A stretch of DNA of 64,000 nucleotides, taken from the NCBI RefSeq assembly GCF_019397265.1, contig NZ_CP068985.1:2832501-2896500 (forward strand). Direction: 5' to 3'. A program made the position numbers and the translations under genes. Below the pieces are notes generated by a model. It was given only the letters and a program-made list of their open reading frames with translations. It made no database searches and was not told the DNA's origin. This document shows positions 15,641 to 39,634 of the stretch, one piece after another (position 1 is the stretch's first letter; each line of letters starts with the position of its first letter). Source of the stretch: Nonomuraea coxensis DSM 45129. Its GTDB lineage: Bacteria > Actinomycetota > Actinomycetes > Streptosporangiales > Streptosporangiaceae.

Positions 15641-17587
15641 ATGGCCATGGTGTCGCCGTTCGGAGGTTTGCTAAAGGGCGACGAAGGCGATGATCCCGCG
15701 CCGTCCAGGATCCGCCCGGAGACGGTACGACGAGTGCTCGGCTACTTCCGCCCGCACATCGGCAAGGTGGCACTCTTCGCTCTCGTCACCGCGATGGACT
15801 CACTCTTCGTCGTCGCGTCTCCCTTGATACTGAAGGACCTGATCGACAAGGGCGTGCTCGGGAACGACCTTGAGCTCGTCGTCTTTCTCGCCTGCCTGGC
15901 CGCCGGGCTCGCCGTCATGAGCGCGCTGTTGCAGCTGGTGTCGGCCTACATCTCCGGCAAGATCGGGCAGGGCGTCAGTTACGACCTCCGGATCCAGGCA
16001 CTCGACCACGTCCAGCGGCTGCCGATCGCGTTCTTCACCCGCACCCAGTCGGGCGTGCTGGTCGGCCGGCTGCACACGGAGCTGGTCATGACGCAGATGG
16101 CGTTCACCCAGATGCTGACGGCGGCCGCCAGCGCGGTCACGGTCGTGCTGGTGCTGGCCGAGTTGTTCTACCTGTCGTGGCTGGTCGCCCTCCTCGCGCT
16201 GCTGCTGATCCCGGTGTTCGTGGTGCCCTGGTCGTACGTGGGACGGCGGATGCAGCGCTACATGAGACGGCTGATGGAGGAGAACGCCGGCCTGGCCGGG
16301 CTGCTGCAGGAGCGGTTCAACGTCCAGGGTGCGATGCTGTCCAAGCTCTTCGGCCGTCCGGCCGAGGAGATGGCCGAGTACGAGAGACGTTCCGGCCGGA
16401 TCCGCGGGCTCGCCGTGAGCGCCACCCTCTACGGCCGGATGGCCCCCGCGATCTTCGCGCTGATGGCCGCGCTCGCCACGGCGCTCGTCTACGGGGTCGG
16501 CGGCGGGCTCGTGCTCGCGCAGGCGTTCCAGCTCGGCACGCTGGTCGCCCTGGCCACCCTGCTGGGACGCCTGTTCGGGCCGATCACCCAGCTGGCCAGC
16601 ATCCAGGAGAACGCGCTCACGGTCCTGGTGACCTTTGACCGGATCTTCGAGCTGCTCGATCTGAAGCCGCTGATCGAGGAACGCCCCGGCGCGGTCGGAC
16701 TCAAGGCGGACGCGGCATCGGACGTCGAGTTCGAGAACGTGTCGTTCCGCTATCCCAGCGCGGACGAGGTCTCGCTGCCGTCGCTGGAACAGAACGTGCG
16801 CGCCGGGCAGGAGCGCGGCGAAGTGACCCAAGAGGTGCTGCGCGACGTGAGCCTGCACGTGCCGGCCGGAACCCTCACCGCGCTCGTCGGCCCGTCCGGC
16901 GCGGGGAAGAGCACCCTGACGCACCTGGTGTCCCGGCTGTACGACCCGACCTCCGGGACCGTTCGCGTCGGCGGGCACGATCTGCGGGACCTCACCTTCG
17001 ACTCGCTTCGCGCAACGGTAGGGGTGGTCAGCCAGGACACCTACCTCTTCCACGACACGATCCGGGCGAACCTGCTCTACGCTCGCCCCGACGCCACCGA
17101 GGACGAACTGGTCGAGGCATGCGAAGGGGCCCAGATCTGGGACCTGATCGCCTCCCTGCCCCGTGGGCTCGACACCGTCGTGGGCGATCGTGGTCATCGC
17201 CTGTCGGGCGGGGAGAAGCAACGACTGGCGATCGCCCGGCTGCTGCTCAAAGCACCCTCGGTCGTCGTGCTCGACGAGGCCACCGCCCACCTGGACTCGG
17301 AGTCGGAGGCCGCCGTCCAGCGGGCGCTCGCGACAGCCCTGCGCAGCCGTACCTCACTGGTGATCGCCCACCGGCTGTCCACGATCCGCGAGGCCGATCA
17401 CATCCTCGTGATCGACGACGGGCGGGTCCGGGAACGCGGGACGCACGAGGAGCTGCTGGCGGAAGGCGGTCTCTACGCGGACCTGTACCACACGCAGTTC
17501 GCCGAGTCGGGCGCCAACGGGACCCGGCCGGGAGCGGACGACGGGGCGGAGCCGGTGCAGCACGTGGTCGGCGGAGGGGGACGGTGA
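15641..17587 (+). CDS. ABC exporter (fused membrane and ATPase domains), glycopeptide export (Dbv24-like)
   Basis: 648 aa half-transporter of the MsbA/LmrA type. A six-helix membrane domain (~residues 30-310) with [15 protein letters not shown] and [11 protein letters not shown] coupling features precedes an ATPase domain with Walker [11 protein letters not shown], signature [15 protein letters not shown], Walker [13 protein letters not shown] and the switch His. The frame is open further upstream, but the ATG at 15641 with GAGAGGGG before it is the best start. The stop overlaps the GTG of the first NRPS gene (GTGA), so exporter and NRPS are coupled. Likely exports the finished glycopeptide. 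Confidence 0.93.
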
Positions 17588-20500
17588 GCGCCACACCGAC
17601 GGTGCCGGACCTCTTCGCCCGGCAGGTGGAGCGGACACCCGATGCGGTGGCCCTGACCGACGGGGACCGGGTCCTGACCTACCGGCGGCTGGACGAGCTG
17701 TCCGGAGCGCTGTCCGGGCGGTTGATCGGCCGGGGCGTTCGCCGGGGCGACCGCGTCGCGGTGATGATGGACCGCTCGGCGGACCTCGTGGTGACGCTGC
17801 TCGCCGTATGGAAGGCGGGGGCGGCGTACGTGCCGGTGGATGCCGCCCATCCTCCCCGGCGGGTGGCGTTCATGGTGGCGGATTCCGGGATCTCCCTGAT
17901 GGTGTTCTCGGCCGCGACGCGCGACGCCGTACCGGAAGGGGTCGAGTCGATCGAGTTCACCGGCGAGGGCGTGGGCGGCACACCGGCGGTCACGGTGGGC
18001 CCGGGGGACCTGGCGTACGTGATGTACACGTCCGGCTCGACGGGGACCCCGAAGGGCGTGGCCGTCCCGCACCGGAGCGTCGCGGAGCTGGCGGGAAACC
18101 CCGGCTGGGGCATGGAACCCGGCGACGCGGTCCTCATGCACGCGCCCTACACCTTCGACGCCTCCCTCTTCGAGATCTGGGTGCCGCTGGTGTCGGGCGC
18201 CCGTGTGGTGATCGCCGCGCCGGGTCCGGTGGACGCCCGGCGCCTGCGCGAGGCGGTCGCGGCCGGGGTGACGAAGGCGCACCTCACCGCGGGCAGCTTC
18301 CGCGCGGTGGCGGAGGAGTCGCCGGAATCGTTCGCGGACCTCCGTGAGGTGCTGACCGGTGGTGACGTGGTGCCCGCGTACGCGGTGGAAAGGGTGCGGG
18401 CGGCCTGCCCCCGCGCGCGGATCCGGCACCTGTACGGCCCGACGGAGACGACCCTGTGCGCGACGTGGCATCTGCTGGAGCCGGGTGACGCCGCGGGTCC
18501 CGTCCTGCCGATCGGCCGGCCGCTTCCCGGCCGCCGGGCCCGCGTGCTCGACGCGTCACTGCGGCCGGTGGAGCCCGGTGTGGTCGGTGACCTGTACCTT
18601 TCCGGCGCCGGTCTGGCGGACGGCTACCTGGACCGGCCGGGGCTGACGGCGGAGCGGTTCGTGGCGGATCCGTCCGCGCCCGGGAGGAGGATGTACCGGA
18701 CGGGGGATCTCGCCCAGTGGAGCGCCGACGGTGAGCTGCTGTTCGCGGGCCGGGCCGACGACCAGGTGAAGATCCGCGGATTCCGGATCGAGCCGGGTGA
18801 GGTCGAGGCCGCGCTGACCGCTCAGCCGAACGTCCGCGAGGCTGTGGTGGGGGCGGTCGACGGGCGCCTGATCGGTTACGTGGTCGCGGACGGGGACGTG
18901 GATCCCGTCCTGGTGCGCGAGGGTCTGGCGGCGTCGCTGCCGGAGTACATGGTTCCCGCCGCTCTGGTCACCCTGGACACGTTGCCGCTGACCGGCAGCG
19001 GCAAGGTGGACAGGAGGGCGCTGCCCGCGCCCGGCTTCGCGCCGTCCGCGACGCGCCGCGAACCCGGCACCGACGCCGAGCGCGTCCTGTGCGACATGTA
19101 CGCCGAGCTCCTCCGGCCGGAGGGGCGGCGCGTAGGGGTCGATGACGGTTTCGTCGAGCTGGGCGGAGACTCGATCGCCGCGATCCGGCTGGCGGCGCGC
19201 GCCTCCAGGGCAGGTCTGCTGGTGACGCCCGCCCAGATCTTCACGGAGAGGACTCCCGCACGGCTGGCGGCCGTGGCGGGCGCCGTACCGGCCGGCAGGC
19301 CCGCCGACGGCCCCCTGATCACCCTCACGGCGGAAGAGGAGGCGGAGCTGAGGATCGCCGTCCCGGACGCCGAGGAGGTCTGGCCGCTCGCACCGCTCCA
19401 GGAGGGGCTGTACTTCCAGGCGACCCTCGACGACGAGGGGCACGACATCTACCAGGCGCAATGGATCCTGGAGCTGGAGGGGCCGCTGGACGCCGCCCGG
19501 CTGCGGGCCTCGTGGGAAGCGGTCTTCGCCCGGCACGCCGAGCTCCGCGTGAGCTTCCACCGGCGCGCGTCGGGGAAGACGCTGCAGGTCGTCGCCGGGC
19601 ACGTCGTCCTGCCGTGGCGGGAGGTGGAGCTGGCCGGCGGGAGCGATGTCGACGCGGCCGTGGAGACCTTGATCAGGCAGGAACAGGAGCAGCGGTTCGA
19701 CCTCGCCAAGGCACCGCTGTTCCGGCTGGTGCTGGTCCGTTACGGCGAGGGCCGGCACCGCCTGCTGGTCGTCCACCACCACATCCTGACCGACGGCTGG
19801 TCGGTGGCGGTCATCCTCAACGAGGTGGCTGAGGCGTACACGGCCGGCGGCCGTCTCCCCGATCGCGCGGGCGCGTCCACCTACCGGGACTTTCTGGCCT
19901 GGTCGGACCGGCAGGACAAGGACGCCGCGCGTGCGGCCTGGCGGGCGGAGCTGTCCGGCCTCGACGGGCCCGCGCCGATCGCGAGAGCCGCCGCCACGAC
20001 CGGCGCCGGGACGGAGTACGAACATCGCGTCGCCTTCTTGAGACCGGACCTCCACACGGGGCTGACGGAGCTGGCCCGCGACCATGGGCTGACGCTGAAC
20101 ACCCTGGCGCAGGGCGCGTGGGCGATGGTGCTGGCGCGGCTCGCGCGGCGGACCGACGTGGTCTTCGGCACCACGGTCGCCTGCCGTCCCGCCGAGCTCC
20201 CGGACGTGGAGTCGGTGCCGGGCCTCATGATGAACACGGTTCCGGTCCGGGTGCCGCTGCGGGGCGGGCAGCCGGTCGTGGACATGCTCCGTGACCTGCA
20301 GGCGCGGCAGACGGCCCTGACACCGCATCAGCATCTGGGGCTGCCGGAGATCCAGCGGGCGGCAGGACACGGCGCGGTGTTCGACACGCTGCTGGTCTTC
20401 GAGAACTACCCGCGGGACTTCGCCGGCCGGTTCACCTATCTGGGGACGGTCGAGGGGACCCACTATCCGCTGACCCTCGGCATCATCCCGGGAGACCACT

Positions 20501-23500
20501 TCAGGATCCAGCTCGTCTACCGGCGCGGGCAGGTCGAGGAGAGCGTCGCCGAGTCCATCCTGGGGTGGTTCACCAGCGCTCTCACGGCCATGGCCGCCGA
20601 TCCGCACGGGCTGGTCGGGCGGATCGGTGTGGGGGAGCCCTGGGACGGCGGCCAGGAACGGGCGAGGGCGGCGGGGGAGCCGCTGCCGGTGCTGGTACGG
20701 CGGGTGGTGGAGGACCGGCCGGACGACGTGGCGGTGGTGGACGGCGACGGCGAGCTGTCGTTCGGAGGGTTGTGGGAGCGGGCGACGGGACTGGCGGCCG
20801 AGCTGAGGGCACGCGGGATCGGGCCGGAGACCCGGGTGGCCGTGATGGTGGGAAGGTCGGCGTGGTGGGCGGTCGCGGTGCTGGGCGTGTCCACGGCGGG
20901 CGGCGCGTTCGTGCCGGTGGATCCGGCGTACCCGGCTGAGCGCGTCAGGTGGATCCTGGCCGACGCCGATCCCGCGCTGGTGCTGTGCGGTGGGACGACG
21001 CGGGAGGCGGTGCCGGAGGAGTTCGGGGATCGGCTGGTGGCCGTCGACGAGCTGGACCTGGCGGGGGGCGGCGACGCGGGATCGCCGCGGGTGCGTCCCG
21101 ATGACGCGGCCTATGTGATCTACACGTCGGGATCGACCGGGACTCCGAAGGGGGTCGTCGTCACACACGCGGGGCTCGGGAACCTGGCGATGGCACAGAT
21201 CGACCGGTTCGCCGTGTCGCCGTCGTCGCGAGTCCTGCAGTTCGCGGCGCTGGGCTTCGACGCCATGGTGTCGGAGGTGCTGATGGCGCTGCTGTCGGGG
21301 GCGAGGCTCGTCATGGCGCCGGAGCGGACTCTGCCACCGGCGGTGTCGCTGGCCGAGGCGCTGCGGCGATGGGAGGTCACGCACGTGACGGTTCCGCCGT
21401 CGGTGCTGGCCACCGCCGACGCGTTGCCGGCCGGGCTGGAGACGGTGGTGGTGGCGGGGGAGGCCTGCCCGCCGGGACTGGCGAATCGCTGGTCGGCGGG
21501 GCTGCGGCTGGTCAACGCGTACGGGCCGACCGAGGCCACGGTCTGCGCGGCGATGAGCATGCCGCTGGCGGCGAGCCGGGACGTGGTCCCGATCGGGAAA
21601 CCCATCGCCGGCGGCCGTTGCTATGTGCTGGACGCGTTCCTCCGGCCGGTGCCGCCGGGGATCACCGGTGAGCTGTACGTGGCCGGGATCGGGCTGGCCC
21701 GCGGTTATCTGGGTCGTGCGGCGTTGTCGGCTGAGCGGTTCGTCGCGGATCCGTTCGTCGTCGGTGGGCGGATGTATCGGACGGGGGATCTGGCGTACTG
21801 GTCGGGTGCGGGTGAGCTGGTGTTCGCCGGGAGGGATGACGACCAGGTCAAGATCCGTGGGTATCGGGTGGAGCCGGGTGAGGTCGAGGCGGTGCTGGCG
21901 GGGCAGCCGGGGGTGGATCAGGCGGTGGTGGTGGCGCGTGGGGGGCGTCTGCTGGGTTATGTGGTGTCGGGTGGCGGGGTGGATCCGGTGGGGTTGCGTG
22001 AGCGGGTCGCCGGGGTGTTGCCGGAGTACATGGTGCCGGCGGCGGTGGTGGTGCTGGATTCCGTGCCGGTGACGGCGAACGGGAAGGTGGATCGGGAGGC
22101 GTTGCCGGATCCTGGTTTCGGGGGGCGGGTCTCGGGGCGGGAGCCGCGTACGGAGGTCGAGCGGGCGTTGTGCGGGTTGTTCGCCGAGGTGCTCGGGTTG
22201 CCGGGCGTGACGGCGGTCGGTCCGGACGACAGCTTCTTCGAGCTGGGCGGGGACTCGATCACCTCGATGCAGCTGGCGGCGCGGGCTCGCCGCGAGGGAA
22301 TGCGCTTCGGCGCGCGGGAGGTGTTCGAGCGCAAGACGCCCGCGGGGCTCGCGGCGATCGTCGGCCTGGGAGGCGAGCCTGCGGCAGGTCCGGCGGACGG
22401 CGTGGGGGAGATCGCGTGGACGCCGGTCATGCGGGCCTTGGGGGACGGGATCACGGGGTCGCGGTTCGCCCAGTGGGTGGTGCTGGGCGCGCCGCCGGAG
22501 CTGCGGGTGGACGTGCTGGCCGCGGGCCTGGCGGCGGTGGTGGACACGCATGACATGCTCCGGTCGCGGGTCGTCGACGACCGGGCGGGCCGCCGGCTGG
22601 TGGTCGGCGAACGCGGGTCGGTGGACACCGCCAGGCTGGTCACGCGGGTGGACGGCGCCGGCCGTGCGCTGGACGAGGTCGTGGAACGCGCGGTGCGGGA
22701 GGCCGTGGAGCGGTTGGATCCGGCAGCGGGTGTGATGGCGCAGGTGGTCTGGGTGGACGCGGGGCCGGCGCGGACGGGGCGGCTGGCGCTCGTGGTGCAC
22801 CATCTGGCGGTCGACGGGATGTCGTGGCGGATTCTGGTGCCTGACCTGCGGCTGGCGTGTGAGGCGGTGGCCGAGGGACGCGATCCGGCGCTGGAACCGG
22901 TGTGGGGGTCGTTCCGGCGCTGGGCGGCTCTCCTGGAGGAGTCGGCGCTCTCGCGGGAGCGGGTCGATGAGCTGCGCACGTGGAGAACGATCGTCGGTCA
23001 GGAGGATCGGCCGATCGGCCGGCGGAGCCCGAACGCGGGGCGTGACGCGGCCGGCGGCGTGCGCTCACGGTCGTGGGTGATGTCGGGGGCCGAGGCGTCG
23101 GTCCTGGTGGGGAAGGTCCCGGTGGCGTTCCACTGCGGCGTTCATGAGGTTCTGCTGGCAGGGCTGGCGGGAGCGGTGGCGCGCCGGCACGGTGTCCACG
23201 GGGTCCTGGTGGACGTGGAGGGCCACGGGCGCCATCCGGCCGGGGGGATGGACCTGTCCCGGACGGTGGGCTGGTTCACGAGCCTGCATCCGGTGCGCCT
23301 GGACGTGACGGGGATCGATCTGGCGGCCGTGCCGGCCGGTGGCCGAGCGGCCGGAGAGCTGCTGAAGGTGGTCAAGGAGCAGTCGCGGGCGGCGCCCGGC
23401 GACGGACTCGGCTACGGGTTGCTGCGGTATCTCAATCCCGGGACGGGCCCGGTCCTGGCGGCCCTGCCGTCGCCGCGGATCGGGTTCAACTACATGGGCC

Positions 23501-23865
23501 GGTTCGTCACCGGTGACCAGGGCGGGGCGCGGGCGTGGCAGCCGGTCGGGAGAATCGGCGGCTCGATGGATCCGGGCATGGGCCTGCCGCACGCGCTGGA
23601 GTGCAACGCGGTCGTCCACGACACGCCGGAGGGCCCGGAGCTGGTGCTCACCGTGGACTGGCGGAACGACCTGCTGGAGGAGGCCGAGGTCGACGGGCTG
23701 TGCCGGGCGTGGCTGGACATGTTGTCCGGGCTGTCCCGCCAGGCGGACGATCCCTCCGCGGGCGGGCACACCGCGTCCGACTTCGCCCTCCTCGACCTTG
23801 ACCAGGACGAGATCGAGAGCTTCGAAGCCATAGCGGCGGAACTGTCTGGAGGACAGGCATCGTGA
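17584..23865 (+). CDS. Glycopeptide NRPS, modules 1-2 (A-T-C-A-T-E), Hpg and Tyr
   Basis: 2093 aa from the GTG at 17584. Domains: A1 (~10-505), T1 (FVELGGDSI ~523), C2 ([11 protein letters not shown] ~597; HHILTDG ~731), A2 (~1035-1530), T2 (FFELGGDSI ~1549) and E2 (~1609-2060; [10 protein letters not shown] ~1738). The first module has no C domain, as expected for initiation. Pocket residues read by eye are DAFHLGLLCK for A1 (Hpg) and DASTVAAVCK for A2, the tyrosine code of glycopeptide modules 2 and 6. E2 sets a D residue at position 2. The end of A2 and all of T2 up to the Ser lie in a 562-bp block repeated exactly in module 3. The last residues ([13 protein letters not shown]) resemble those of the module-3 protein and may act in docking. 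Confidence 0.96.
21695..22256 (+). repeat. 562-bp perfect repeat, copy 1 (module 2, A2 C-terminal part and T2)
   Basis: Base-for-base identical to 26257-26818 by direct comparison, offset 4562 bp. It spans motifs A7-A10 (TGDLAYW through NGKVDREAL) and the start of the carrier domain up to the phosphopantetheine Ser codon. Identity stops abruptly on both sides, and the codon usage here is richer in GGT/GTG-type triplets than the flanks. Confidence 0.97.
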
Positions 23866-26800
23866 ACACTCCGAACACATCCGCGGGGTCGGCGCTCGAG
23901 GAAGTCTGGCCGCTGTCACCGATGCAGGAGGGCATCCTCTACCACGCCGCACTCGACGAGGCCCCTGACCTCTACCTCATCCAGCAGACGCAGATCATCG
24001 AAGGGCCCTTGGACACCGAACGGTTCCGCATGGCCTGGGAGACCCTCCTCGACCGGCATCCGGCGCTTCGCGCGTGCTTCCACCGGCGGAAGTCCGGCGA
24101 GACGGTCCAGCTCATCCCCCGGAAGGTGCGGCTCCCGTGGTCGGAGCGCGACCTCTCCGGCCTGGCCGAGGAGGACGCGCTGGCCGAGGCGGGCGTGATC
24201 GCGGAGCGGGAGCGCGCCACGAGATTCGACCCGGCGAAGCCTCCGCTGCTGCGGCAGGTGCTGATCCGGCTCGGCCCGGAGCGGCACTGCCTCGTGACGA
24301 CGAGCCATCACCTGGTCATGGACGGGTGGTCGCGGGCGATCCTCGAGTCGGAGCTCCTCGACCTGTACGCGGCGGGAGGCGCCGGCCCGGGGCTGCGGCC
24401 CGCCGGCTCCTACCGGGACCATCTGGCGTGGCTGGACCGGCAGGACAAGGAGGCCGCCCGCGCGGCATGGCGTGCGGAGCTGGACGGCGCCGGCCGTTCG
24501 ACCTTCGGGATCGCCGAGAGGTCCGGGAAGACCCCGGGGCAGCGGGTGCGGGAGGTGCTCCGCTATTCGCCGGAGTTCACCTCCGCTCTGGTGGAGTTCG
24601 CCCGCGGTCATGGGCTGACGCTGAACACGCTGGTGCAGGGGGCGTGGGCGCTGGTGCTGGCCCGGCTGACGCGCCGTCGTGACGTGGTGTTCGGCGCGGT
24701 GGTCTCGGGGCGTCCGGCGGAGGTGCCCGGCGTGGAGCAGGCCGTGGGGCTGTTCATCAACACCGTGCCGGTGCGGGTCCGGCTGGACGGCGGGCAGCCG
24801 GTCATCCAGCTGCTGACGGAGCTGCAGGAGCGGCAGTCCGCGCTCATCTCGCACCAGCATCTCGGGCTGCAGGAGATCCAGAAGCTTTCCGGGGTGAGTT
24901 TCGACACGGTCGTGTCGTTCGAGAACTACGTCGATCCGGGGGCGGGAGCGGGCTCCGATCGCGAGGTGCGCCTGATCCTCAAGGAGTTCCACCAGTCGGC
25001 GCCGTACGCGCTCGTCCTCGGCATCATGCCGGGTGAGAGCCTCCAGACCGACGTGGAGTACCGGCCCGCGATGCTCGACGGCCGCGTCGCCGAGGAGGCT
25101 CTGCACGGGCTCGCCCGGGTCCTCGAGCGGATGATCGCCGAGCCGGAGACGGCCGTGGGCCGCCTGGACGTGATCGGTGACGCGGGGCGCGAGCTGGTGG
25201 TCGAGCGGTGGAACGAGACGGGCGAGGCGATCGGCGCGGCGTCCGCCGTGGAGCTGTTCCGGCGGCAGGTGGAAAGGGCGCCCGCCGCCACGGCGGTCAC
25301 GGCAGGGGGCCTGGCCTGGTCGTACGCGGAGCTTGACGGGTGGTCCGGCCGTCTGGCGCGGGCACTGACGGATCGCGGGGTGCGCCGCGGCGACCGGGTC
25401 GGTGTGGTGCTGGGGCGGTCGGCGGAGACCCTGGCGGCATGGCTCGGGGTGTGGAAGGCGGGAGCGGCGTTCGTACCGGTCGATCCGGACTACCCGGCGG
25501 ACCGGGTGGCGTTCATGCTGGCCGACTCCGCGGTCGCGATGGTGGTGTGCCAAGAGGCGACCTCGGGTGTGGTGCCGCCGGGCTACCGGCAGGTCTTCGT
25601 GGACGACGCCGGCGACGGCGAGACCGCCTTCGTCCCGGTCGGGGCGGACGACCTCGCCTACGTGATGTACACCTCCGGATCGACCGGGACCCCGAAGGGC
25701 GTGGCGGTCCCGCACGGTGGCGTCGCGGCGCTGGCGGGAGATCCGGGATGGGGCGTCGGGCCCGGCGACGCGGTGCTGATGCACGCCCCGCACACCTTCG
25801 ACGCCTCCTTGTACGACGTGTGGGTGCCGCTCGTGTCCGGTGCGCGGGTCATGATCACCGAGCCGGGGGTGGTCGACGCGGAGCGGCTCGCCGCGCACGT
25901 GGCCGGCGGTCTCACCGCCGTGAACTTCACCGCGGGGCACTTCCGCGCGCTGGCGCAGGAGTCGCCGGAGTCGTTCTCGGGGCTGCGCCAGGTGGCGGCG
26001 GGCGGAGACGTGGTGCCGCCCGATGTGGTGGAGCGGGTGCGGCGGGCGTGCCCGCGGCTCCGTGTCCTGCACACCTACGGCCCGACGGAGACCACGCTGT
26101 GCGCCACGTGGAAGGCGATCGAGCCCGGTGACGAGGTGGGGCCGACGTTGCCCATCGGCCGGGCACTGCCGGGCCGTCGGCTGTACGTGCTGGACGTCTT
26201 CCTCCGGCCGGTGCCGCCGGGCGTCACGGGTGACCTCTACATCGCCGGCGCCGGAGTGGCCCGCGGTTATCTGGGTCGTGCGGCGTTGTCGGCTGAGCGG
26301 TTCGTCGCGGATCCGTTCGTCGTCGGTGGGCGGATGTATCGGACGGGGGATCTGGCGTACTGGTCGGGTGCGGGTGAGCTGGTGTTCGCCGGGAGGGATG
26401 ACGACCAGGTCAAGATCCGTGGGTATCGGGTGGAGCCGGGTGAGGTCGAGGCGGTGCTGGCGGGGCAGCCGGGGGTGGATCAGGCGGTGGTGGTGGCGCG
26501 TGGGGGGCGTCTGCTGGGTTATGTGGTGTCGGGTGGCGGGGTGGATCCGGTGGGGTTGCGTGAGCGGGTCGCCGGGGTGTTGCCGGAGTACATGGTGCCG
26601 GCGGCGGTGGTGGTGCTGGATTCCGTGCCGGTGACGGCGAACGGGAAGGTGGATCGGGAGGCGTTGCCGGATCCTGGTTTCGGGGGGCGGGTCTCGGGGC
26701 GGGAGCCGCGTACGGAGGTCGAGCGGGCGTTGTGCGGGTTGTTCGCCGAGGTGCTCGGGTTGCCGGGCGTGACGGCGGTCGGTCCGGACGACAGCTTCTT

Positions 26801-27053
26801 CGAGCTGGGCGGGGACTCCATCTATTCGGTGAAGCTGGCGGCGCGGGCCACGCGTGCCGGAATGCCCTTCACCGTGGTGGAGGTGTTCGAGCACAGGACG
26901 CCCGCGGGGCTCGCGACGATCGTCGACCCGGGAGGCGCGCCCGCGGCAGGTCCGGCTGAGACCCCGTCGGACTCCGCCCTCCTCGACCTGGACCAGGACG
27001 AGATAGAGGAGTTCGAGGCCGAGTTCGACGGCGGACGTCACTCCCTTCACTGA
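23862..27053 (+). CDS. Glycopeptide NRPS, module 3 (C-A-T), predicted Dpg
   Basis: 1063 aa from the GTG at 23862, which overlaps the previous stop (GTGA) and follows GGAGG. C3 begins at [11 protein letters not shown] with HHLVMDG (~148). A3 occupies ~455-960 and T3 has FFELGGDSI (~978). There is no E domain, so residue 3 stays L, as in teicoplanin-type peptides. The A3 pocket reads DAYNAGTLCK: it shares the D-Y-G-TLCK frame of the canonical Dpg code (DPYHGGTLCK, found exactly in A7) but differs at three positions. Dpg is the best guess from context. The 3' part of A3 and T3 is the second copy of a perfect 562-bp repeat. A strong hairpin follows the stop. Confidence 0.95.
26257..26818 (+). repeat. 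562-bp perfect repeat, copy 2 (module 3, A3 C-terminal part and T3)
   Basis: Exact copy of 21695-22256. The differing flanks (pocket-forming N-terminal A subdomains, and the C-terminal half of the carrier domains) show a local gene conversion or unequal exchange rather than duplication of a whole module. Confidence 0.97.
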
Positions 27054-27388: not shown

Positions 27389-30300
27389 ATGGCTCAGTCG
27401 CGCATCGAGGATTTCTGGCCGCTGTCACCACTCCAGCAAGGACTGCTCTTCCACACGGCCTACGACGACGATTGGCCCGGCCTTTATGTGGGCCATTGGA
27501 TCCTGCACCTGGACGGTCCGGTGGAAGCGGGCAGAATGCGTGCCGCATGGGAGGCGCTCCTGGCGCGGCACGCCGCTCTCCGCGCCTGTTTCCGGCAGCG
27601 CAGATCGGGTGAGACGGTGCAGCTCATCGCCAGGCAGGTGGAACTGCCGTGGCGGGAGGTGGACCTGTCCCATCTCAGCGAGCCCGAGGAGGCCGTACGG
27701 GCGCTGGCCGAGGAGGACAGGACGAGGAGGTTCGACCTCGCCAAGGCGCCGTTGCTGCGGCTGACCCTGATCCGTCTCGCCGGCGACCGCCACCGCCTGG
27801 TGATGACCAGCCATCACGCGATCATGGACGGCTGGTCGATGCCCATCATGTTCGACGAGCTGTCGCAGCTGTACGCGGCCGGCGGCAGCCCGCCTGACCT
27901 GCCCGCGGTGACGTCGTACCGGGAGTACCTCGCCTGGCTGGACAGGCAGGACAAGGAGCGGACGCTGTCGGCATGGGCGGCGGAGCTGCGGGGCGTCGAG
28001 GAGCCGACGCTGGTGGCGCCCGCCGACCCGGGGCGGGCGCCCGCCATGCCGGAGAACGTCACGGTCGAGCTGCCCGGGAACCTCACGCGAGCTCTGAACG
28101 AGCTGGCCCGTGCCCATGGGCTGACGCTGAACACGGTGGTGCAGGGCGCGTGGGCGCTGCTGCTCGCACAGCTGGCAGGCCGGACGGACGTGGTGTTCGG
28201 CGCGGTCGTCTCGGCGCGCCCGCCGGGTCTGCCCGGCGTCGAGGGAATGGTCGGGCTGTTCCTCAACACCGTTCCCGTACGCGTGCGGCTGGACGGCTCG
28301 ACGCCGGTCATCGACCTTCTGGCGGATCTGCAGAAACGGCAGTCGGCGCTCATTCCCCACCAGTACGTGGGGCTGGCGGACATTCAGAAGGCGGCCGGCG
28401 CCGGCGCGATCTTCGACACCCTGCTCGTTTTCCAGAACTTTCCCCGTGAGCTTCGCGAATCAGCTGCCGCGGAAACCTTCGGCATTCGCATAGAACAGGG
28501 CCGGGAAGCCGCCCATTATCCGCTGACGCTGGTCGCCGTCCCCGGCGAGTCGATGCTGCTCAATCTCGATTACGTGACGGACCTCTTCGACCGGGAAAGC
28601 GCGCTCGCCATCGTCGAGAGATTCACCGGAATTCTGCGGCAGCTCGCGGACGCGGGCGACATCGCGGTGGCCGAGGTCGGCGTGACGAGCGCGGCCGAGC
28701 GTGAGCTGGTGACGAGATGGAGCGCGGCATCCGACGGGGCGCCGTGCGATCTGGCCCTGGAGCTGTTCGACCGCCAGGTCGAGCGGGGCCGTGACCGGGT
28801 GGCGGTCGTCGAGGGAGAGCGGGCGGTGCCGTTCGGCGAACTGGCCGGGCACGCGGAGCGGCTCGCCGGCTACCTGAGCGGCCGGGGCGTCCGGCGCGGG
28901 GATCGGGTGGCCGTGGTGATGCGACGCTCACCCGACCTGATCGCGACGCTGCTCGCGGTGTGGAAGGCGGGAGCGGCGTTCGTGCCGATCGATCCCGCCT
29001 ACCCGGCGGAACGCGTGACGTTCATGCTCGCGGACGCGGAGCCGGCGGCGGTGGTGTCCGAGCGAGCGTGCAGGCACCTGCTGGACGGCGGGCCCGATCC
29101 GATCGTCCTGGACGATCCGGAGACGCGGCGGGCGGTGGCGGAGCACGCCCGGCTCTCCGCGGGCGCGCGGGCGGACGACCTCGCCTACGTGATGTACACG
29201 TCGGGATCGACGGGGAGGCCGAAGGGCGTCGCGGTGTCGCACGGCAACGTCGCGGCGCTGGCCGGCGAGCCGGGATGGGGCATGGGCCCCGAGGACGCCG
29301 TGCTGATGCACGCCTCACACGCCTTCGACATCTCGCTGTTCGAGCTGTGGGTGCCGCTGCTGTCGGGCGCCCGGGTCGTGCTGGCCGAGCCGGGCGCGGT
29401 GGACGGCGAGGCCCTGGCCGGGCACGTGGCCGCCGGTGTCACCTCCGCTCACCTGACCGCGGGGACCTTCCGGGTGCTGGCCGAGGAGTCACCGGAGTCG
29501 ATCGCCGGTCTGCGCGAGGTGCTGACCGGCGGGGACAAGGTGCCGCTCGCGGCGGTGGAGCGGGTGCGGCGGGCGTGCCCGGACGTCCGGGTGCGCCATC
29601 TCTACGGCCCCACGGAGGCCACGCTGTGCGCGACATGGTGGCTGCTCCGGCCGGGCGAACCGGCGGGGCCGGTGCTGCCGATCGGGCGTCCCCTCGCCGG
29701 GCGGCGGGTCTACGTCCTCGACGCGTTCCTGCGGCCCGTGCCCCCGGGGGTGACGGGCGAACTGTACGTCGCCGGGTCCGGTGTGGCGCAGGGCTATCTG
29801 GGCCGCCCGGCGATGACGGCCGAACGGTTCGTCGCCGATCCGTTCGTACCCGCCGAGCGGATGTACCGGACCGGAGACCTGGCGTACTGGACGGATCAGG
29901 GTGCGCTGGCGTTCGCCGGACGCGCCGATGACCAGGTGAAGATCCGCGGCTACCGGGTGGAGCCCGGCGAGATCGAGGCGGTCCTCGCGGGCCTTCCGGA
30001 TGTCGGCCAGGCCGTGGTGTCCGCGCGGGAAGAGCGCCTGATCGGGTACGTGGTCGCCGAGGCGGGGCGGGACCTCGACCCGGCACGCCTACGCGACCAG
30101 CTCGCCGCGACGCTGCCCGAGTTCATGGTTCCGGCCGCGGTGCTGGTGCTGGACGAGCTGCCGCTGACCGGCAACGGGAAGGTGGACCGCCGGGCCCTGC
30201 CCGAGCCGGACTTCGCCTCCGAGGCCGTGGACCGGGAGCCGGCCACCGAGGCCGAGCGGACCATGTGCGACGTGTTCGCCGAGGTCCTGGGCGTGGAGCG

Positions 30301-33300
30301 GGTCGGGGCCGGAGACAGCTTCTTCGCGCTGGGCGGCGACTCGATCTCGTCGATGCAGGTCGCCGCCCGCGCGCGTCGCCATGGCATCCCGCTGACCCCG
30401 CGGCAGGTGTTCGAGTACCGGACCCCCGAGCGCCTGGCGGCGCTGGCCGAGGCGGCCCCCGCGCGGCGACCCTCCGCGGGGGAGACGGGCGTGGGGGAGA
30501 TCCCGAGGACGCCGGTGATGCGTGCCCTCGGGGACGACGCGGCGCGCCCCGGTTTCGCGCAGGCGCGCGTCGTCGTCACCCCTGCCGGCCTCGCCCCGGA
30601 CGCCCTGGTGAATGCCCTGCAGGCCGTCCTGGACGTCCATGATCTTCTACGGGCCCGGGTGGAGCCCGGCGGACGGCTGACGGTGGCCGAGCCGGGTGCC
30701 GTGGACGCGGCCGGCCTGGTGACGCGGGTGGCCGCCGGGGACGGGAACGCCGCTGAGATCGCCGAGCGCGAGGCCAGGACGGCGGCGGGCACGCTGGACC
30801 CGTCCGCGGGCATCATGGTCCGGGCCGTGTGGGTGGACGCGGGCGACGCCGAGCCGGGCCGGTTGGCCCTGGTGGTGCATCACCTGGCCGTGGACGCGGT
30901 CTCGTGGGGCATCCTGCTGTCGGATCTGCGTGCGGCGTACGACGAGGCGGTCTCCGGCGGAACCCCCGTCCTCGAACCCGTGGTGACGTCGTACCGGCAA
31001 TGGGCGCGCCGGCTGGCCCGGCAGGCGTTCAGCGAGAGCACCGTGGCAGAGGCCGGCTACTGGGCCGGCGTGCTCGAAGGCGCCGGCCTGCCGCTGGAGC
31101 GGCACCCCGGGCAGTCGGCGTCGTGGTCCAGGACGCTGTCCGGCGCCGAGGCGCGCGACCTGGTGGCGCGCGTGCCGGCAGCCTTCCACTGCGGGGTCCA
31201 GGACGTCCTGCTGGCGGGCCTGGCGGGTGCGGTGGCGCGGTGGCGCGGCGCCGGCCCGGGGATTCTGGTGGACGTGGAAGGCCATGGCCGCCATGCCGCC
31301 GACGGAGAGGATCTGCTGCGTACCGTGGGCTGGTTCACCAGCGTTCATCCGGTTCGCCTCGACGTCTCCGGCATCGACCTGGGAGCGGCGGCAGCCGGGG
31401 ACGCGGCGGCCGGAGAGCTGCTGAAGGCCGTGAAGGAGCAGACGCGCGCGGTGCCCGGCGACGGGCTCGGCTATGGGCTGCTGCGCCATCTCAACCCCGA
31501 GACCGCGGCCAGGCTGGCCGGGTTGCCGTCGGCCCAGATCGGGTTCAACTATCTCGGACGGGCCGGCGTCGCCTCCGGGGACACCGCGTGGCAGGTGTGC
31601 GAAGGGTCGCTCGGCGGGGGAGCGGCCGGGCCGGACATGGTGCGATCCCATGCCGTGGAGGTCGGCGCGGACGTTCAGGACACACCGGCCGGCCCCCGGC
31701 TGAGGCTCGCCGTCGACGGCAAGGATCTCGACCCGGCCACGGTGGAGCGGCTCGGCGAGGTCTGGCTGGACATGCTGGCCGGTCTCGCCGCCCTCGCCGG
31801 CACTCCCGGCGCGGGCGGGCACACACCGTCCGACTTCGATCTGGTCGATCTGCGGCAGCGGGACGTGGACGAGCTGGAGGCCGCCGCGCCAGGTCTGACG
31901 GACGTCTGGCCGCTGTCGCCCCTCCAGGAAGGCATCCTCTTCGAAAGAGCCCTCGGCGAGGACGGCGTCGACGTCTACCAGACCCAGCGGATCCTCGACC
32001 TCGACGGGCCGCTCGACGCGGAACGGCTGCGCGCGGCATGGAACTCCGTGGCCGCCCGGCACGAAACGCTCCGGACCAGCTTCCACCAGCTGGGATCCGG
32101 CGAGACGGTGCAGGTCGTCGTGGGCGAGGCCGCCGTCCCGTGGCGTGAGGCCGATCTGTCGCAGCTCGACGAGGCGGACGCGGAGGCGGAGGTCGAACGC
32201 CTGCTCGCGGAGGACGAGGCGGAGCGGTTCGACGTCAGCAGGGCGCCGCTGCTCCGGTTGCTGCTGATCCGTCTCGGCGCGGCGCGGCACCGGCTCGTGG
32301 TGACCTCGCACCATGTGCTCGTGGACGGCTGGTCGACGCCCATCCTTCTGGGCGAGATGGTGACCGCCTACACGGACGGACGGGGCGCGCCCACGCCGCC
32401 CCCCTACCGGGACTACGTGGCGTGGCTGAGCCGCCAGGACCAGGACGCGGCACGATCGGCGTGGCGCGCCGAACTCGCCGGGCTGGACGAGCCGACCGTG
32501 GCAGGCTTCGACGCGGGCAAGGCGCCGATGATGCCGGACGGGCACACCGAATGGCTGTCCGAGGAGGCGACCCGCGCCCTCACCGGCTTCGCCCGTGGTC
32601 ATGGACTGACGTTGAGCACGGTCGTCCAGGGCGCCTGGGCCCTGGTGCTGGCGCGGCTGGCGAGACGTACGGATCTGGTGTTCGGCACGGTCGTGTCCGG
32701 GCGCCCGGCGGACGCGCTGCCGGATGTCGAGCGGATGGTGGGGATGTTCATCAACACCGTTCCGGTCCGGGTGCGCCTCGACGGCGGCGTGCCGGTGCTG
32801 GACCTGCTCCAGGACCTGCAGAGGCGCCAGTCGGCCTTGACGGAGCATCAGCACCTGGGGCTGCCGGAGATCCAGAAGGCGGCGGGGCCGGGCGCGATCT
32901 TCGACACGATCATGATGGTCGTCAACTACCCGCTGGACGCCGGCGGGCTCGACGACGGTGGCGTCACGATCAGCTCCGTCCACACGCGGACCGGCACCAC
33001 CTATCCGCTGTCCGTGAGCGTCATCCCGGGCGCCCGCCTGCGGATCCAGCTGGACTACCGGCCCGACGCGATCGACAGGGACCTGGCCGCCGAGATCACC
33101 AGGCAGGTCGTGCGCGTCCTGGCCCGGGTGGTTGCGGAGCCCTCGCTTCCCGTCGGACGGCTGGGCGTGACGAGCGAGTCCACGCGCGCCTCCGTGACGG
33201 AGCGCCGGAACCCGGCCGGCGGTTCATCGGTGCCGGAGCTGTTCCGGCGCCAGGCCCACGCGGCGCCGGACGCGGTGGCGGTCGTCGGCAACGGACGCAC

Positions 33301-36300
33301 CCTGTCCTACGCCGGCCTCGACCGGGAATCGGACCGGCTGGCGGGCCGCCTGGCCGCAAGGGGCGTGCGGCGCGGCGACCGCGTCGGCGTGCTGATGGAA
33401 CGCGGCGCGGACCTGATCGTCGCCCTGCTCGCGGTCTGGAAGGCGGGGGCCGCGCAGGTGCCGGTGAACGCGGACTACCCGGCGGAGCGCATCGAGCGGA
33501 TGCTGGCCGACTCCGGCGCATCGGTGGCGGTGTGCGCTGGGGCGACACGGAACGCGGTCCCGGACGGGGTCGAGCCGGTGGTCATGGACGCACCGGCGGC
33601 CGAGGGGGAGCCGCACGAGGCGCCACCGCTCGCGGCCGGGGCACACGACGTGGCCTACGTGATGTACACGTCCGGATCGACCGGGGCGCCGAAGGGCGTC
33701 GCGGTGCCGCACGGGAGTGTCGCGGCGCTGGCCGGCGACCCGGGCTGGTCGCAGGGCCCGGGCGATCGCGTCTTGATGCACGCGTCGCACGCGTTCGACG
33801 CCTCGCTGCTCGAGATCTGGGTGCCGCTGGTCAGCGGAGCCTGCGTGACGGTCGCGGAACCGGGCGCGGTCGACGCGCAGCGGCTGCGGGAGGCGATCGC
33901 ACGGGGCGCGACCACCGTCCATCTGACGGCGGGGACCTTCCGGGTGCTGGCAGAGGAGTCGCCGGACTCCTTCAGCGGGCTGCGCGAGGTCCTCACCGGC
34001 GGGGACGTGGTTCCGCTCGAGTCCGTCGCACGGGTGCGCCGGACCTGCCCGGAGGTCCGGGTCCGGCAGTTGTACGGCCCCACCGAGATCACCCTCTGCG
34101 CCACCTGGCACCTCATCGAGCCGTGGGCAGAAACGGGCGGCGCCTTGCCGATCGGCCGTCCGCTGGCCGGCCGGCAGGTGTACGTCCTCGACGACTTCCT
34201 CCAGCCGGTGGCGCCGAACGTCACCGGTGAGCTCTACATCGCCGGCGCGGGCCTGGCCCACGGTTATCTGGCCGCCCCCGGGGCGACCTCGGAGCGGTTC
34301 GTCCCGGTGCCCGTCTCGGTGGATCCTTCGGCCGCCGGCGAGCGCATGTACCGCACCGGCGATCTGGCGCGCTGGACGGACCAAGGCGAGCTGATCTTCG
34401 CCGGGCGGGCCGACTCGCAGGTGAAGATCCGGGGCTACCGCGTCGAGCCCGGGGAGATCGAGGCGGCGCTCGCCGAGGTTCCCCACGTCGCGCAGGCAGT
34501 CGTCGTGGCGCGGGAGGACCGTCCCGGCGAGAGGAGGCTCATCGCCTACGTGACCGCGGGAGAGGGCTCGGGCCTCGATCCCGATGCGGTGCGCGGGCAT
34601 CTCGCGGGACGGCTGCCGGAGTTCATGGTGCCGGCCGTGGTGGTGCCGCTGGACGGCCTCCCGCTGACGCTCAACGGGAAGGTCGACCGCGCCGCTCTGC
34701 CCGTCCCCGGGTTCGCGGGGAAGACGGCGGGCCTGGAGCCGCGTACCGAGGCCGAGCGGGTGTTGTGCGGACTGTTCGCCGAGGTCCTGGGCGTGGAGCG
34801 GGTCGGGGCCGGAGACAGCTTCTTCGAGCTGGGCGGGGACTCGATCCTCTCGATGCGGCTGGCCGCCCGCGCGCGGCGCGAGGATCTCGTCTTCGGCGCG
34901 AAGGACGTCTTCGAGCGCAGGACGCCCGCGGGGATCGCGGTGGTCGCCGGGCGCGGCGGTGAGAGGCGGGCGGGCGTCGCCGACGGCGTCGGCGAGGTGA
35001 TGCTGACGCCGGTGATGCGGGCCCTGCTCGAACGCGATCCGCACGCGATGACCCGGGGCGCCCTGGCGCAGTGGGTGACCGCCGGCGCGCCCGGCGACCT
35101 GTCGGTGGAGGCGCTGGCGGCCGGGTTGGGCGCGGTGATCGACGCACATGACATGCTGCGCAGCCGGATCGCTCCGGCCGAGGCCGCGCAGCCCCGGCTG
35201 GTCGTGGCCGAGCGCGGGACGGTGGACGCGGCGGCGCTGGTCGAACGGGTCGAGGCCGGCACCGGTGACGTGGACGAGCTCGCGGATCGCTGCGCCCACG
35301 ACGCGGCCGCGCGGCTGGATCCCCACGCCGGCGTGATGATCCGGGCGGTCTGGGTGGACGCGGGACCAGGACGGGTGGGACGGCTCGTCGTGGCGGCGCA
35401 CCATCTCGTGGTGGACGTCGTGTCGTGGCGGATCCTGCTGCCCGACCTGCGAGCGGCCTGTGAGGCCGTGACCGCCGGCCGGGAACCGGTGCTCGATCCC
35501 GTCGACGTCTCGTTCCGGCGCTGGGCGCGCACGCTGGCCGATCAGGCGGCGGGCCGGACCGCGGAGCTGGAGACGTGGACGGAGATCCTCGGCGGAGCGC
35601 GAGCGTGGCCGGGCGGGCTCGACCCGGCGCGCGACACCGTCTCGACCGCGGGACGCAGGTCGTGGACGCTGCCGCGCGACCGGACGGGCGCGCTCGTGGA
35701 CAAGGCCACCTCGGCCTTCCACTGCGGTGTCCACGAGGTGCTGCTGGCGACGCTGGCGGGCGCGGTGGCCCGATGGCGCGGCGGCACCACGGTCGTGGTG
35801 GACGTCGAAGGTCACGGCCGTCAGCCCATCGGCGAGATGGACCTGTCGCGGACGGTCGGCTGGTTCACCGACGTGCATCCGCTCCGGCTGGACGTGACGG
35901 GGATCGACCCGGCCGAGGTGATCGCGGGTGGCGGCGCGGCCGGCCGCCTGCTGAAGCAGGTCAAGGAGAACGTGCGGGCCGTGCCTGACGGCGGGCTCGG
36001 CTACGGCATGTTGCGTCATCTCAACGCCGCGACCGGGCAGGCTCTCGCGGCGCTGCCGGAGGCGGAGATCGGGTTCAACTACCTCGGCCGCTTCCCGTCC
36101 CGGTCCGAGGGCGCCGCGGAGCCCTGGCAGCTGCTGGGCACCATCGGCGGCACGACGGAGCCGGACATGGCGTTGCGGCACGCCGTGGAGATCGACGCGG
36201 CCGTGCTGGACGGCGCGGACGGACCTGAGCTGAGCCTGACCGTGACCTGGGCCGGGCGGATTCTCGCCGAGGCCCAGGCGGAGTCGCTCGCGAAGGCATG

Positions 36301-39300
36301 GCTGGACATGCTGACCGGCCTCGCCGCACACGCCGGCGAGGCCGGCGCCGGCGGGCACACGCCCTCCGACTTCCCGCTCGTCTCGCTGACGCAGCCGGAC
36401 GTGGCGGAGGTCGAGGCCGCCGTACCGGACCTGCTCGACGTCTGGCCGCTGTCTCCGCTCCAGGAGGGCCTGCTGTTCCACGCCGCCGACGAGCGTGGTC
36501 CGGACGTCTACGCGGGCATGCGCAAGCTCGCCCTCGACGGCCCGCTGGACGTCGCCCGTTTCCGCGCCTCCTGGCATGTCCTGCTGGACCGGCATCCCGC
36601 CCTGCGGGCGAGCTTCCACCAGCTCGGGTCCGGCGCGGCCGTCCAGGTGATCGCCCGCGAGGTGACGCTGGACTGGCGGGAGACCGATCTGTCAGAGCTG
36701 CCGGAGGACGAGGCGCTCGCCGAATTCGACCGGCTCGCGGAGCAGCTGCACGCCGAGCGGTTCGACCTGACCCGGGCGCCGCAGCTGCGGCTGCACCTGG
36801 TGCGCCTCGGCGAACGCCGGCACCGGCTGGTCTTCACCTCCCATCACATCGTGGCCGACGGCTGGTCCCTGCCGCTGATCACGGGGGACGTGCTGAGCGC
36901 GTACGAGTCCGGCGGTGACGGCCGGGCGCTTCCGGCCGCGACGTCGTACCGCGACTATCTCGCCTGGATCGCCCGCCAGGACAAGGCGGCCGCCCGGGAG
37001 GCGTGGCGGACCGAGCTCGCGGGCCTCGACGAGGCGACCCACGTCGTGCCGCCGGAAACGATCACTGCACCCCTGGAGCCCGAACGCGTCGGGTTCGAAC
37101 TCGACGACGAGCTGAGCCGGCGCGTGGTGGAGTTCACCGGCCGTCACGGCGTGACGGCGAACACGCTCTTCCAGGGGATCTGGGCCCTGCACCTGGCCCG
37201 GCTGACCGGACGCGACGACGTGGTCTTCGGCGCCGCGGTGGCCGGGCGCCCGCCCGAGATCCCCGGCGTCGAGTCCGCCGTCGGCCTGTTCATGAACATG
37301 TTGCCGGTCCGGGCCCGCCTGGCCGGCGCGGAACCGTTCCTCGACATGCTGGCGGACCTGCAGCGACGGCAGGTCGCGTGCATGCCGCACCAGCACGTCG
37401 GGCTGAGCGAGATCAACCAGCTCGCCGGTCCTGGCGCGGCGTTCGACACGATCGTGGTGTTCGAGAACTACCCGCCCCCGCCGCCCCGGCCCGAAGGCCC
37501 CGGCGCGCTCGTCATGCGGCCCGCGGGAATCCCGAACGACACCGGACACTATCCGCTGTCCATGCGCGCGTCCGTGGCCGGCCGCGTCCACGGCGAGTTC
37601 ATCTACCGGCCGGACGTGGTCGATCGGACCGAGGCCGAGGAGATGCTCGCGTCGATCCTCCGGGCGCTGGAACAGGTGGTGGCCGAGCCGCGCGTGCCGG
37701 TCGGGCGCGTGGGCCTGACCGGTCCGGAGCAGCGCCGCCTGGTGGTGGAGGAGTGGAACCGGACCGGCGTGCCGCTCGCCGCGGAGTCGGTGCCGGTGCT
37801 GTTTCGCCGGCAGGTGGAGCGGTCGCCGGACGCGGTGGCGGTCGTGGACGCGGCCCGTAGCCTGTCGTTCGGCGAACTGCTGGACGAGGCGGAGACACTG
37901 GCGCGGCTGCTGGCGGTGCTGGGCGTGCGGCGCGGGACGCGGGTGGGCGTGCTCGTGGAGCGGTCGGCCGAGCTGGTGGTGGCCCTGGTCGGGGTGTCCG
38001 TGGCGGGCGGGGTGTTCGTTCCGGTGGATCCGGATTACCCGGGCGAGCGCATCACCTGGATCCTGGCGGATTCCGCGCCGGAGGTGCTGCTGTGCACGAC
38101 GGGGACCCGGGAGGCCGTCCCGGAGGACTTCGCGGGCGCGGTGGTGGTGCTGGACGGGCCGCTCGCCGCCGATCCGCGGACGGCGCTGCCGCGGGTGGAG
38201 GCCGGTGACGGGGCGTACGTGATCTACACCTCGGGGTCGACGGGCGTGCCCAAGGGGGTCCTTGTCCCGCATGCCGGGCTCGGCAACCTGGCGAGCGCGC
38301 AGATCGAGCGCTTCGCCGTCACGCCCGCCTCGCGGATCCTGCAGTTCGCCGCTCTCGGATTCGACGCCGCCGTCTCCGAGCTGTACGTGGCCCTGCTGTC
38401 GGGAGGGACCGTCGTGCTGGCCGACGCGGCAAGCATGCCGCCCCGGGTGTCGCTGGGCGACGCGGTACGCCGGTGGGGCATCACCCATGTCACCGTGCCG
38501 CCGAGCGTGCTGGCCGTCGAGGACGACCTGCCGGACAGCCTGGAGACCCTGGTCGTGGCCGGCGAGGCGTGCCCGCCCGCGCTGGTGGACCGCTGGTCGC
38601 CGGGCCGCCGGATGATCAACGCCTACGGGCCCACCGAGACGACCGTGTGCGCGACGATGAGCTCCCCGCTGTCTCCGGGACGCGACGCGGTCCCCATCGG
38701 CCGCCCGATCACCGGCATGCGGGCCTATGTGCTCGACGCCTTCCTGCAGCCGGTGCCGCCAGGCGTGACCGGCGAGCTGTATGTCGCGGGGGCCGGGCTC
38801 GCCCGCGGCTACCTCGGACGTCCGGGCCTGACGGCGGAGAGGTTCGTCGCGGTGCCGGCTTCCGTGAACCCCGCGCGTCCTGGTGAGCGCATGTACCGCA
38901 CCGGCGACCGGGCCCGCTGGACCAGGGAAGGCGAGCTGGTCTTCGCCGGGCGGGCCGACGCGCAGGTCAAGGTGCGCGGATACCGCATCGAGCCGGGTGA
39001 GATCGAGGCCGTGCTGGCGGACCATCCGGGGGTCGCCCAGGTGGCGGTCGTCGCCCGCGACGACGGCCCGGGCGAGAAGCGCCTGGTGGCGTATGTCGTC
39101 CCCGCGGGCGAGCAGGCGCCCGCCGAGGCCGGGCAGGACGGCGCACTGATCTCCGCCCTCCGCGAGAGCGCGGCCGGACGCCTGCCGGAGCACATGAGGC
39201 CGGCGGCGTTCGTCCCGCTGGACGCGATGCCCCTGACCCCGAACGGCAAGGTCGATCATCGGGCGCTGCGGGCCCCCGAGGTCGCGAGGCCGTCGTCCGG

Positions 39301-39634
39301 ACGCGACCCGCGCTCGGCCATGGAGGCGAGGCTGTGCGAGCTGTTCGCGGAGGTGCTCGGCCTGGACGGCGTGGGCGCCGGCGACAGCTTCTTCGAGCTC
39401 GGCGGCGACTCGATCACCTCGATGCAGCTGTCGGCCCTGGCCCGCAGGAAAGGGCTGGACCTCACCCCGTGGCAGGTGTTCGACGAGAAGACGGCGGAAC
39501 GGCTGGCGGCGGTCGTCAAGGAGCTCCCGGCCGGCGGCGACGGCCCCGGGGAGCCGGAGCCCCCGGGCGGCACGCTCGTGGATCTTTCGCCTGATCAGCT
39601 GGACCAACTCGAGGCCGGACCGGCCGGCGGATGA
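27389..39634 (+). CDS. Glycopeptide NRPS, modules 4-6 (C-A-T-E-C-A-T-E-C-A-T), Hpg-Hpg-Tyr
   Basis: 4081 aa. Module 4: C4 (HHAIMDG), A4, T4 (FFALGGDSI ~979), E4 ([10 protein letters not shown] ~1163). Module 5: C5 (~1507; HHVLVDG), A5, T5 (~2478), E5 ([10 protein letters not shown] ~2670). Module 6: C6 (~3017; HHIVADG), A6, T6 (~4000), no E. Pocket codes read by eye are A4 DIFHLGLLCK (Hpg), A5 DALHLGLLCK (Hpg-like) and A6 DASTVAAVCK (Tyr). This gives D-Hpg4, D-Hpg5 and L-Tyr6 (later beta-hydroxylated and chlorinated), the conserved core of glycopeptides. E4 and E5 have Ala and Val where E2 has the usual Gly after the catalytic Asp. T4 has FFALGG where the others have FFELGG or a similar acidic form. 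Confidence 0.96.

Follow-up and report, generated by a model that had tools for sequence, protein, structure and literature searches.

Modules 2 and 3 of the noc NRPS of Nonomuraea coxensis share a 562-bp segment that is homogenized by recurrent gene conversion, a case of concerted evolution that is well supported by the comparison of three genomes. We hold with high confidence a joint explanation in which the two modules converted one another repeatedly, the module 3 version was most likely copied into module 2 at the founding event, a GRINS-like nucleotide skew probably promotes the recombination, and the edges of the exchanged tract are held.

The window, the whole 64-kb stretch of N. coxensis DNA that was analyzed, contains a dbv/noc-type glycopeptide NRPS cluster. 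Its seven modules are split 1-2, 3, 4-6 and 7 with a terminal thioesterase, and P450 genes and a halogenase gene lie downstream of the NRPS genes, as expected for clusters of this type. The gene order agrees with Table 1 for noc in PMC8291499, where the noc specificities are also given as equal to those of dbv; by this order the cluster is assigned to noc, and its product is predicted to be a glycopeptide. The nocA ORF (17119..23865, + strand) encodes modules 1-2. In its longest form it begins inside the upstream ABC-transporter gene (17119-17583), and the real start is probably the GTG at 17584, which has a purine-rich leader and is a better fit to the N-terminus of the dbv homologue. nocB (23862..27053, +), overlapping nocA by 4 bases, encodes module 3 (C-A-T), nocC (27389..39634, +) encodes modules 4-6 and was without a repeat of this kind in identity and skew scans, and nocD (39653..45265, +) encodes module 7 with two Condensation-family stretches and the thioesterase. 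A Pfam scan of nocA, nocB and nocD returned NRPS domains in all three, and the last Condensation-family stretch of nocA appears to be an epimerization domain.

The segment occupies 21695..22256 (+) in module 2, within nocA, and 26257..26818 (+) in module 3, within nocB. The initial annotation had described a perfect duplication lying in two different genes, and indeed 562 of 562 bases match and the exact run has precisely these limits. The copies are direct repeats 4,562 bp apart and encode identical protein, hence in the same reading frame. The 50-nt blocks that hold the edges are 0.74-0.76 identical at fixed offset, with paralogue background further out, and the A-cores of the two modules upstream of the segment are 35-62% identical (40-column blocks, 21200 to 21611). 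Over the segment, the remaining module pairs of the noc cluster are at most 71% identical, which excludes identity by chance (0.71^562, ~3e-84). The left limit of the segment lies within motif A6, where the A-core ends, ~62 codons upstream of the Pfam AMP-binding_C domain (A-sub; 21880..22086, + in module 2). On the right, the segment includes two of the three bases of the carrier serine codon, so that the previously described coverage, an A-domain C-terminal subdomain plus half a carrier, can now be stated to the base. It contains motifs A7, A8 and A10, as well as A-sub and the part of the carrier that precedes and reaches the serine, corresponding to the first half of the carrier (PP-binding) domain of module 2 (22165..22359, +). 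The right edge at 22256 falls at the identical base position in 3/3 genomes; the following base, the third of the serine codon (22257..22257, +), is G in 3/3 module 2 copies and C in 3/3 module 3 copies.

The segment was aligned without gaps across N. coxensis and two other genomes. One of these, G305, comes from a different genus in the same family as N. coxensis, and its C domain shares 95% identity with the nocB C domain; the other, G017, is of the dbv type, with NRPS modules on two strands as described for dbv. Within a genome, modules 2 and 3 differ at 0 (N. coxensis), 1 (G305) and 2 (G017) of 562 positions, whereas between genomes the segments differ at 24-25 (N. coxensis-G305), 41 (N. 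coxensis-G017) and 37-38 (G305-G017) positions. There are 51 variable sites, 48 of which are equal within every genome yet different between genomes (24 distinguish G017, 12 are private to N. coxensis, 8 to G305 and 4 are three-way), while 3 differ within a genome. The concerted codons comprise 29 synonymous and 14 nonsynonymous ones. Segment divergence (4.4% for N. coxensis-G305, 7.3% for N. coxensis-G017) is similar to that of the orthologous flanks (3.3-4.5%, and 7.8% for the upstream flank of module 3), with 9.1% over the whole module 2 stretch of N. coxensis and G017, so the segment mutates at about the normal rate, but in both copies. Under independent evolution since the splits, the Poisson probability of so few differences is ~2e-11 for N. 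coxensis, ~6e-10 for G305 and ~1e-15 for G017. In a DNA tree of 10 rows the copies cluster by genome, with support of 98/98 for the dbv pair and 69/80 for the G305 pair (the noc copies being identical), and a module 2 clade is rejected (p-AU 0.00016). Paralogues are thus closer to each other than to their orthologues and share derived changes, the two hallmarks of concerted evolution. No homogenized segment was found in modules 2 and 3 of six other glycopeptide-type clusters (L009-L013, L024), and no further close cluster was found among 396 genomes drawn across the phylum.

Comparison of related clusters had been proposed as a way to date the event and to identify donor and recipient; it dated the process as old and recurring and resolved donor and recipient in part. 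If homogenization had ended at the split of N. coxensis and G305, ~24 differences would be expected in N. coxensis; 0 were observed (95% limit ~3), placing the last conversion roughly within the last eighth of the branch since that split. Protein trees were built from nine clusters for the A-core (45 rows; the module 3 core of A. coloradensis is absent) and the segment (46 rows), along the lines of the segment-wise analysis that had been suggested. In the A-core tree, module 2 forms one clade (9 rows) and module 3 another (8 rows), bearing out the claim that the binding pockets were left unchanged and compatible with the different amino acids ascribed to the two modules in the initial annotation. 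The segment does not group by module: the three noc-type module 2 copies join module 3 in a six-row clade (100/99), and the grouping of these six copies with all module 3 segments has a support of 93/89 (not starred). A single clade of nine module 2 segments is rejected (p-AU 0.0005), as is a topology that joins the six noc-type copies to the remaining module 2 segments (p-AU 0.0096). The trees and AU tests together suggest that at the founding event the module 3 version probably overwrote that of module 2. Module 2 had also been considered as the founding donor on account of its skewed flanks, and was dismissed, since in three outgroup clusters module 2 has flanks of about equal skew and the tree favors module 3. 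A later event in G305 ran from module 2 to module 3. In the left edge region (21622..21694, +) the G305 tract extends further, and its module 3 carries the module 2 letter at 8/8 diagnostic sites (21660-21693); on the right side there is a single isolated site of this kind, at 22380.

The nucleotide skew of the segment had gone unmentioned in the initial annotation. GC and TA skew are 0.40 and 0.39, and when 562-nt windows are moved along the 64 kb (step 10), the absolute summed skew peaks at the segment. A is absent from its third codon positions, where the skews reach 0.53/1.0 compared with 0.07/0.11 in the rest of nocA-D, a bias beyond amino-acid choice, and it contains 31 G runs of at least 3 nt against 1 such C run. 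In the six other glycopeptide-type clusters, by comparison, the module 2 and 3 segments have GC skews of 0.03-0.16 and TA skews of -0.01 to 0.11, with module 2-module 3 identities of 71-73%. The published definition of GRINS comprises a repeat that lies within one synthase and measures 500 bp or more, identity >80%, and GC and TA skew >0.25 (PMC9899208, PMC10394414). A gap-free version of the published method, applied to nocA-D, called only two regions that reach 500 bp, one in module 2 (21589..22368, +; 780 nt, mean identity 0.955, mean absolute GC and TA skew 0.36 and 0.36) and one in module 3 (26149..26928, +; 780 nt, mean identity 0.956, skews 0.35/0.36), against 0.115/0.138 over all nocA-D fragments. 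The host genes are NRPS genes, not polyketide synthase genes, and we refer to the segment as 'GRINS-like', whether a polyketide synthase location is required being a matter of definition. The flanks of module 2 (20600-23400) are themselves moderately skewed (GC 0.23-0.25), as are those of K. aridum, A. vastitatis and S. toyocaensis (0.12-0.31), indicating an older skew. A steady drift toward greater skew was also considered and found no support, lineage-private changes toward G/T numbering 8 vs 2 in N. coxensis and 1 vs 5 in G305.

A second case was found in modules 3 and 4 of a cluster in genome G010, called kistamicin-like by resemblance, where a 1,715-bp repeat has 93.9% identity and skews of 0.30-0.33. 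Along this repeat, identity and GC skew are jointly lower across an A3-A6 stretch, which should be the location of the binding pocket, and high on both sides of that stretch; TA skew is erratic over it. The repeat was compared with the fragmentary cluster of G003 in two windows at the repeat ends (478 columns), giving 31 concerted sites, 1 module-split site, 30 others and 13 gap columns. Inside a genome the copies differed at 20-25 sites on the right and 4-9 on the left, fewer than the 33-46 and 14-19, respectively, that separate the genomes, so homogenization is partial here. A third overlap, 127 columns long and located at the edge of the pocket, was not clearly concerted, and with this overlap and 30 sites fitting neither pattern the kistamicin-like case is less clean than that of noc. 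The module 3 copy in G010 (locus L118) has no open frame throughout, the frameshift being either an assembly error or a real lesion. Draft contigs of G003 (C55, C563, C383) and G210 (C50, C43) terminate in or adjoining the kistamicin-like repeat, and such repeats may be hidden in further draft clusters.

Repeats were surveyed in 82 sequences (the window, four stretches of other genomes and 77 named NRPS loci), a biased sample in that the named loci were picked by resemblance to nocB. Repeats of at least 300 bp and at least 85% identity occurred in 6 of the 82 (the window, L116, L118 and L018 from one genome, L043 and L067), and all but L067 were skewed (5/6). The Streptomyces iranensis NRPS contig L043 contains four repeat pairs of 0.35-2.2 kb (88-93%, skews up to 0.4) and is perhaps another GRINS-rich NRPS. 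When 251 segments from 68 loci were aligned, all 10 rows with a within-locus partner of at least 95% identity had a summed skew of at least 0.68 (8 rows without the duplicate genome, from two cluster families), compared with a median of 0.011 for the named loci. With partners of 85-95% the skew was mostly raised (L017, L014, L043, L063, L050); skew was lacking in the 87.5% pair of L020 and in the 85% repeat of L067. Conversely, five segments (L019, two in L027, L034, L048) are strongly skewed with no near-identical partner in the DNA examined. Very high summed skews (0.9-1.0) were seen in the A-sub/carrier segments L027 4773 and L034 7838. Over 228 named-locus segments, skew and identity were weakly correlated by rank (rho 0.23, p 0.0004, uncorrected for relatedness).

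Several other readings of the 562-bp identity were weighed. The initial annotation had seen in it a fresh gene conversion; conversion itself and the recency of the latest event, attested by the exact identity, have held up, while a single event confined to N. coxensis has become very improbable in light of the tract being homogenized in G305 and G017 too, where it ends at the same base on the right and 48 sites have changed in concert. A single ancestral event fares no better, as subsequent independent drift would leave ~24-41 differences per genome. The chance that a collapsed repeat was written twice during assembly or polishing is slighter still, judging from the assemblies. Repeats of this kind do break drafts, as the G003 and G210 contigs illustrate, and an earlier N. 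coxensis draft had the cluster divided among contigs (PMC8291499), but the present sequence is one 9.07-Mb contig from a strain for which Illumina and ONT data are reported (PMC8291499), and the homogenized tract is seen in three separate assemblies, which differ from one another in the tract and place it between unique flanks. As the sole cause, purifying selection at the protein level has next to no standing: A-sub and carrier are conserved domains, yet the 29 synonymous concerted codons refute protein constraint.

A more serious contender, which we nevertheless regard as the less probable reading, is that ordinary recombination maintains the identity after one founding event and that the skew is a relic of codon usage with no role in conversion. 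The weak correlation, the skewed segments without a partner, the lack of a consistent trend in lineage changes, and the unskewed comparable repeats of L067 and L020 speak for it. Against it stand the strong skew of all ten segments with a within-locus partner of at least 95%, the joint dip of identity and GC skew across the pocket region of the kistamicin-like pair, and the unskewed outgroup segments. On the basis of this association, we hypothesize that skew promotes conversion.

The observed concerted pattern, edges and skew suggest a model of recurrent conversion between modules 2 and 3. The modules would swap the 0.56-kb segment repeatedly by non-reciprocal homologous recombination between the direct repeats, a route that we infer. 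Most likely, the module 3 version entered module 2 in an ancestor of the noc/dbv-type clusters, and later repeated conversions would have preserved the identity of the copies inside each lineage even as the lineages grew apart. The segment holds generic parts (A7-A10, A-sub and the carrier to its serine), and its conversion should leave the substrate unchanged. Conversion reaching into the A-core pocket or the partner-contacting part of the carrier might instead be harmful, or be blocked by flank divergence, and we propose that the edges hold for this reason. Selection may act on the left edge through the pocket and on the right through carrier partner contacts, although flank divergence alone could suffice. 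Recombination is probably promoted by the strong bias of the coding strand toward G and T. Should a crossover join the two direct repeats, 4,562 bp and one module would be lost, in frame given the shared reading frame of the copies. More tentatively, and at somewhat less than even probability, skewed GRINS-like repeats may form a general recombination motor of NRPSs with at least two separate origins in glycopeptide clusters, which would homogenize large parts of A-T units except at pocket and partner edges and mark natural exchange units that are reused.

The data presented here reveal concerted evolution among antibiotics of the family to which the dalbavancin precursor belongs, for which the systematic study PMC4256081 found none, and tie it to a signature of nucleotide skew that polyketide synthases are known for. 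The nearly stable edges in three lineages suggest an A-T part that can be swapped with the product unchanged, which would be useful for NRPS engineers. For clusters like these, trees built from an entire A or T domain blend two histories, and draft assemblies can break at such repeats.

Domain trees in PMC4256081 show no concerted pattern for the balhimycin, teicoplanin and A40926 clusters, to which the dbv-type clusters would be a sub-domain exception. As in the rapamycin family and the calcium-dependent lipopeptides (PMC4256081), copies within a cluster are closer than orthologues; in contrast to the PKS/NRPS cases described there, the noc tract covers only part of a domain. Replacement of module 3 is known for vancomycin types (PMC10687080), the consulted portion of which is silent on the noc tract, and among the matches listed, in a search whose coverage left out most of the subscription literature, there was no published description of the repeat in dbv or noc. 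Exchanges of the A-core that mostly spare A-sub have been described (PMC8097286, PMC9205934). The noc segment resembles these exchange units in its boundary near A5/A6, with A-sub and carrier together and the pocket separate, in agreement with the natural swap point recognized early on. It differs in that in those units the pocket moves and the product changes, while in noc the complementary part moves. The founding GRINS study, Nivina 2021, reportedly names several gene families in its abstract, and NRPS cases may be among them. GRINS have been described in polyketide synthases and linked with gene conversion (PMC10394414, PMC9899208), and skew together with sequence conservation is said in general terms to favor gene conversion in PKSs and NRPSs (PMC11915812). 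The noc segment matches GRINS in repeat size, identity, both skews and the link to gene conversion, and differs in lying in an NRPS, in spanning A6 to the carrier serine with no polyketide synthase domains, and in that its concerted evolution is demonstrated from three genomes.
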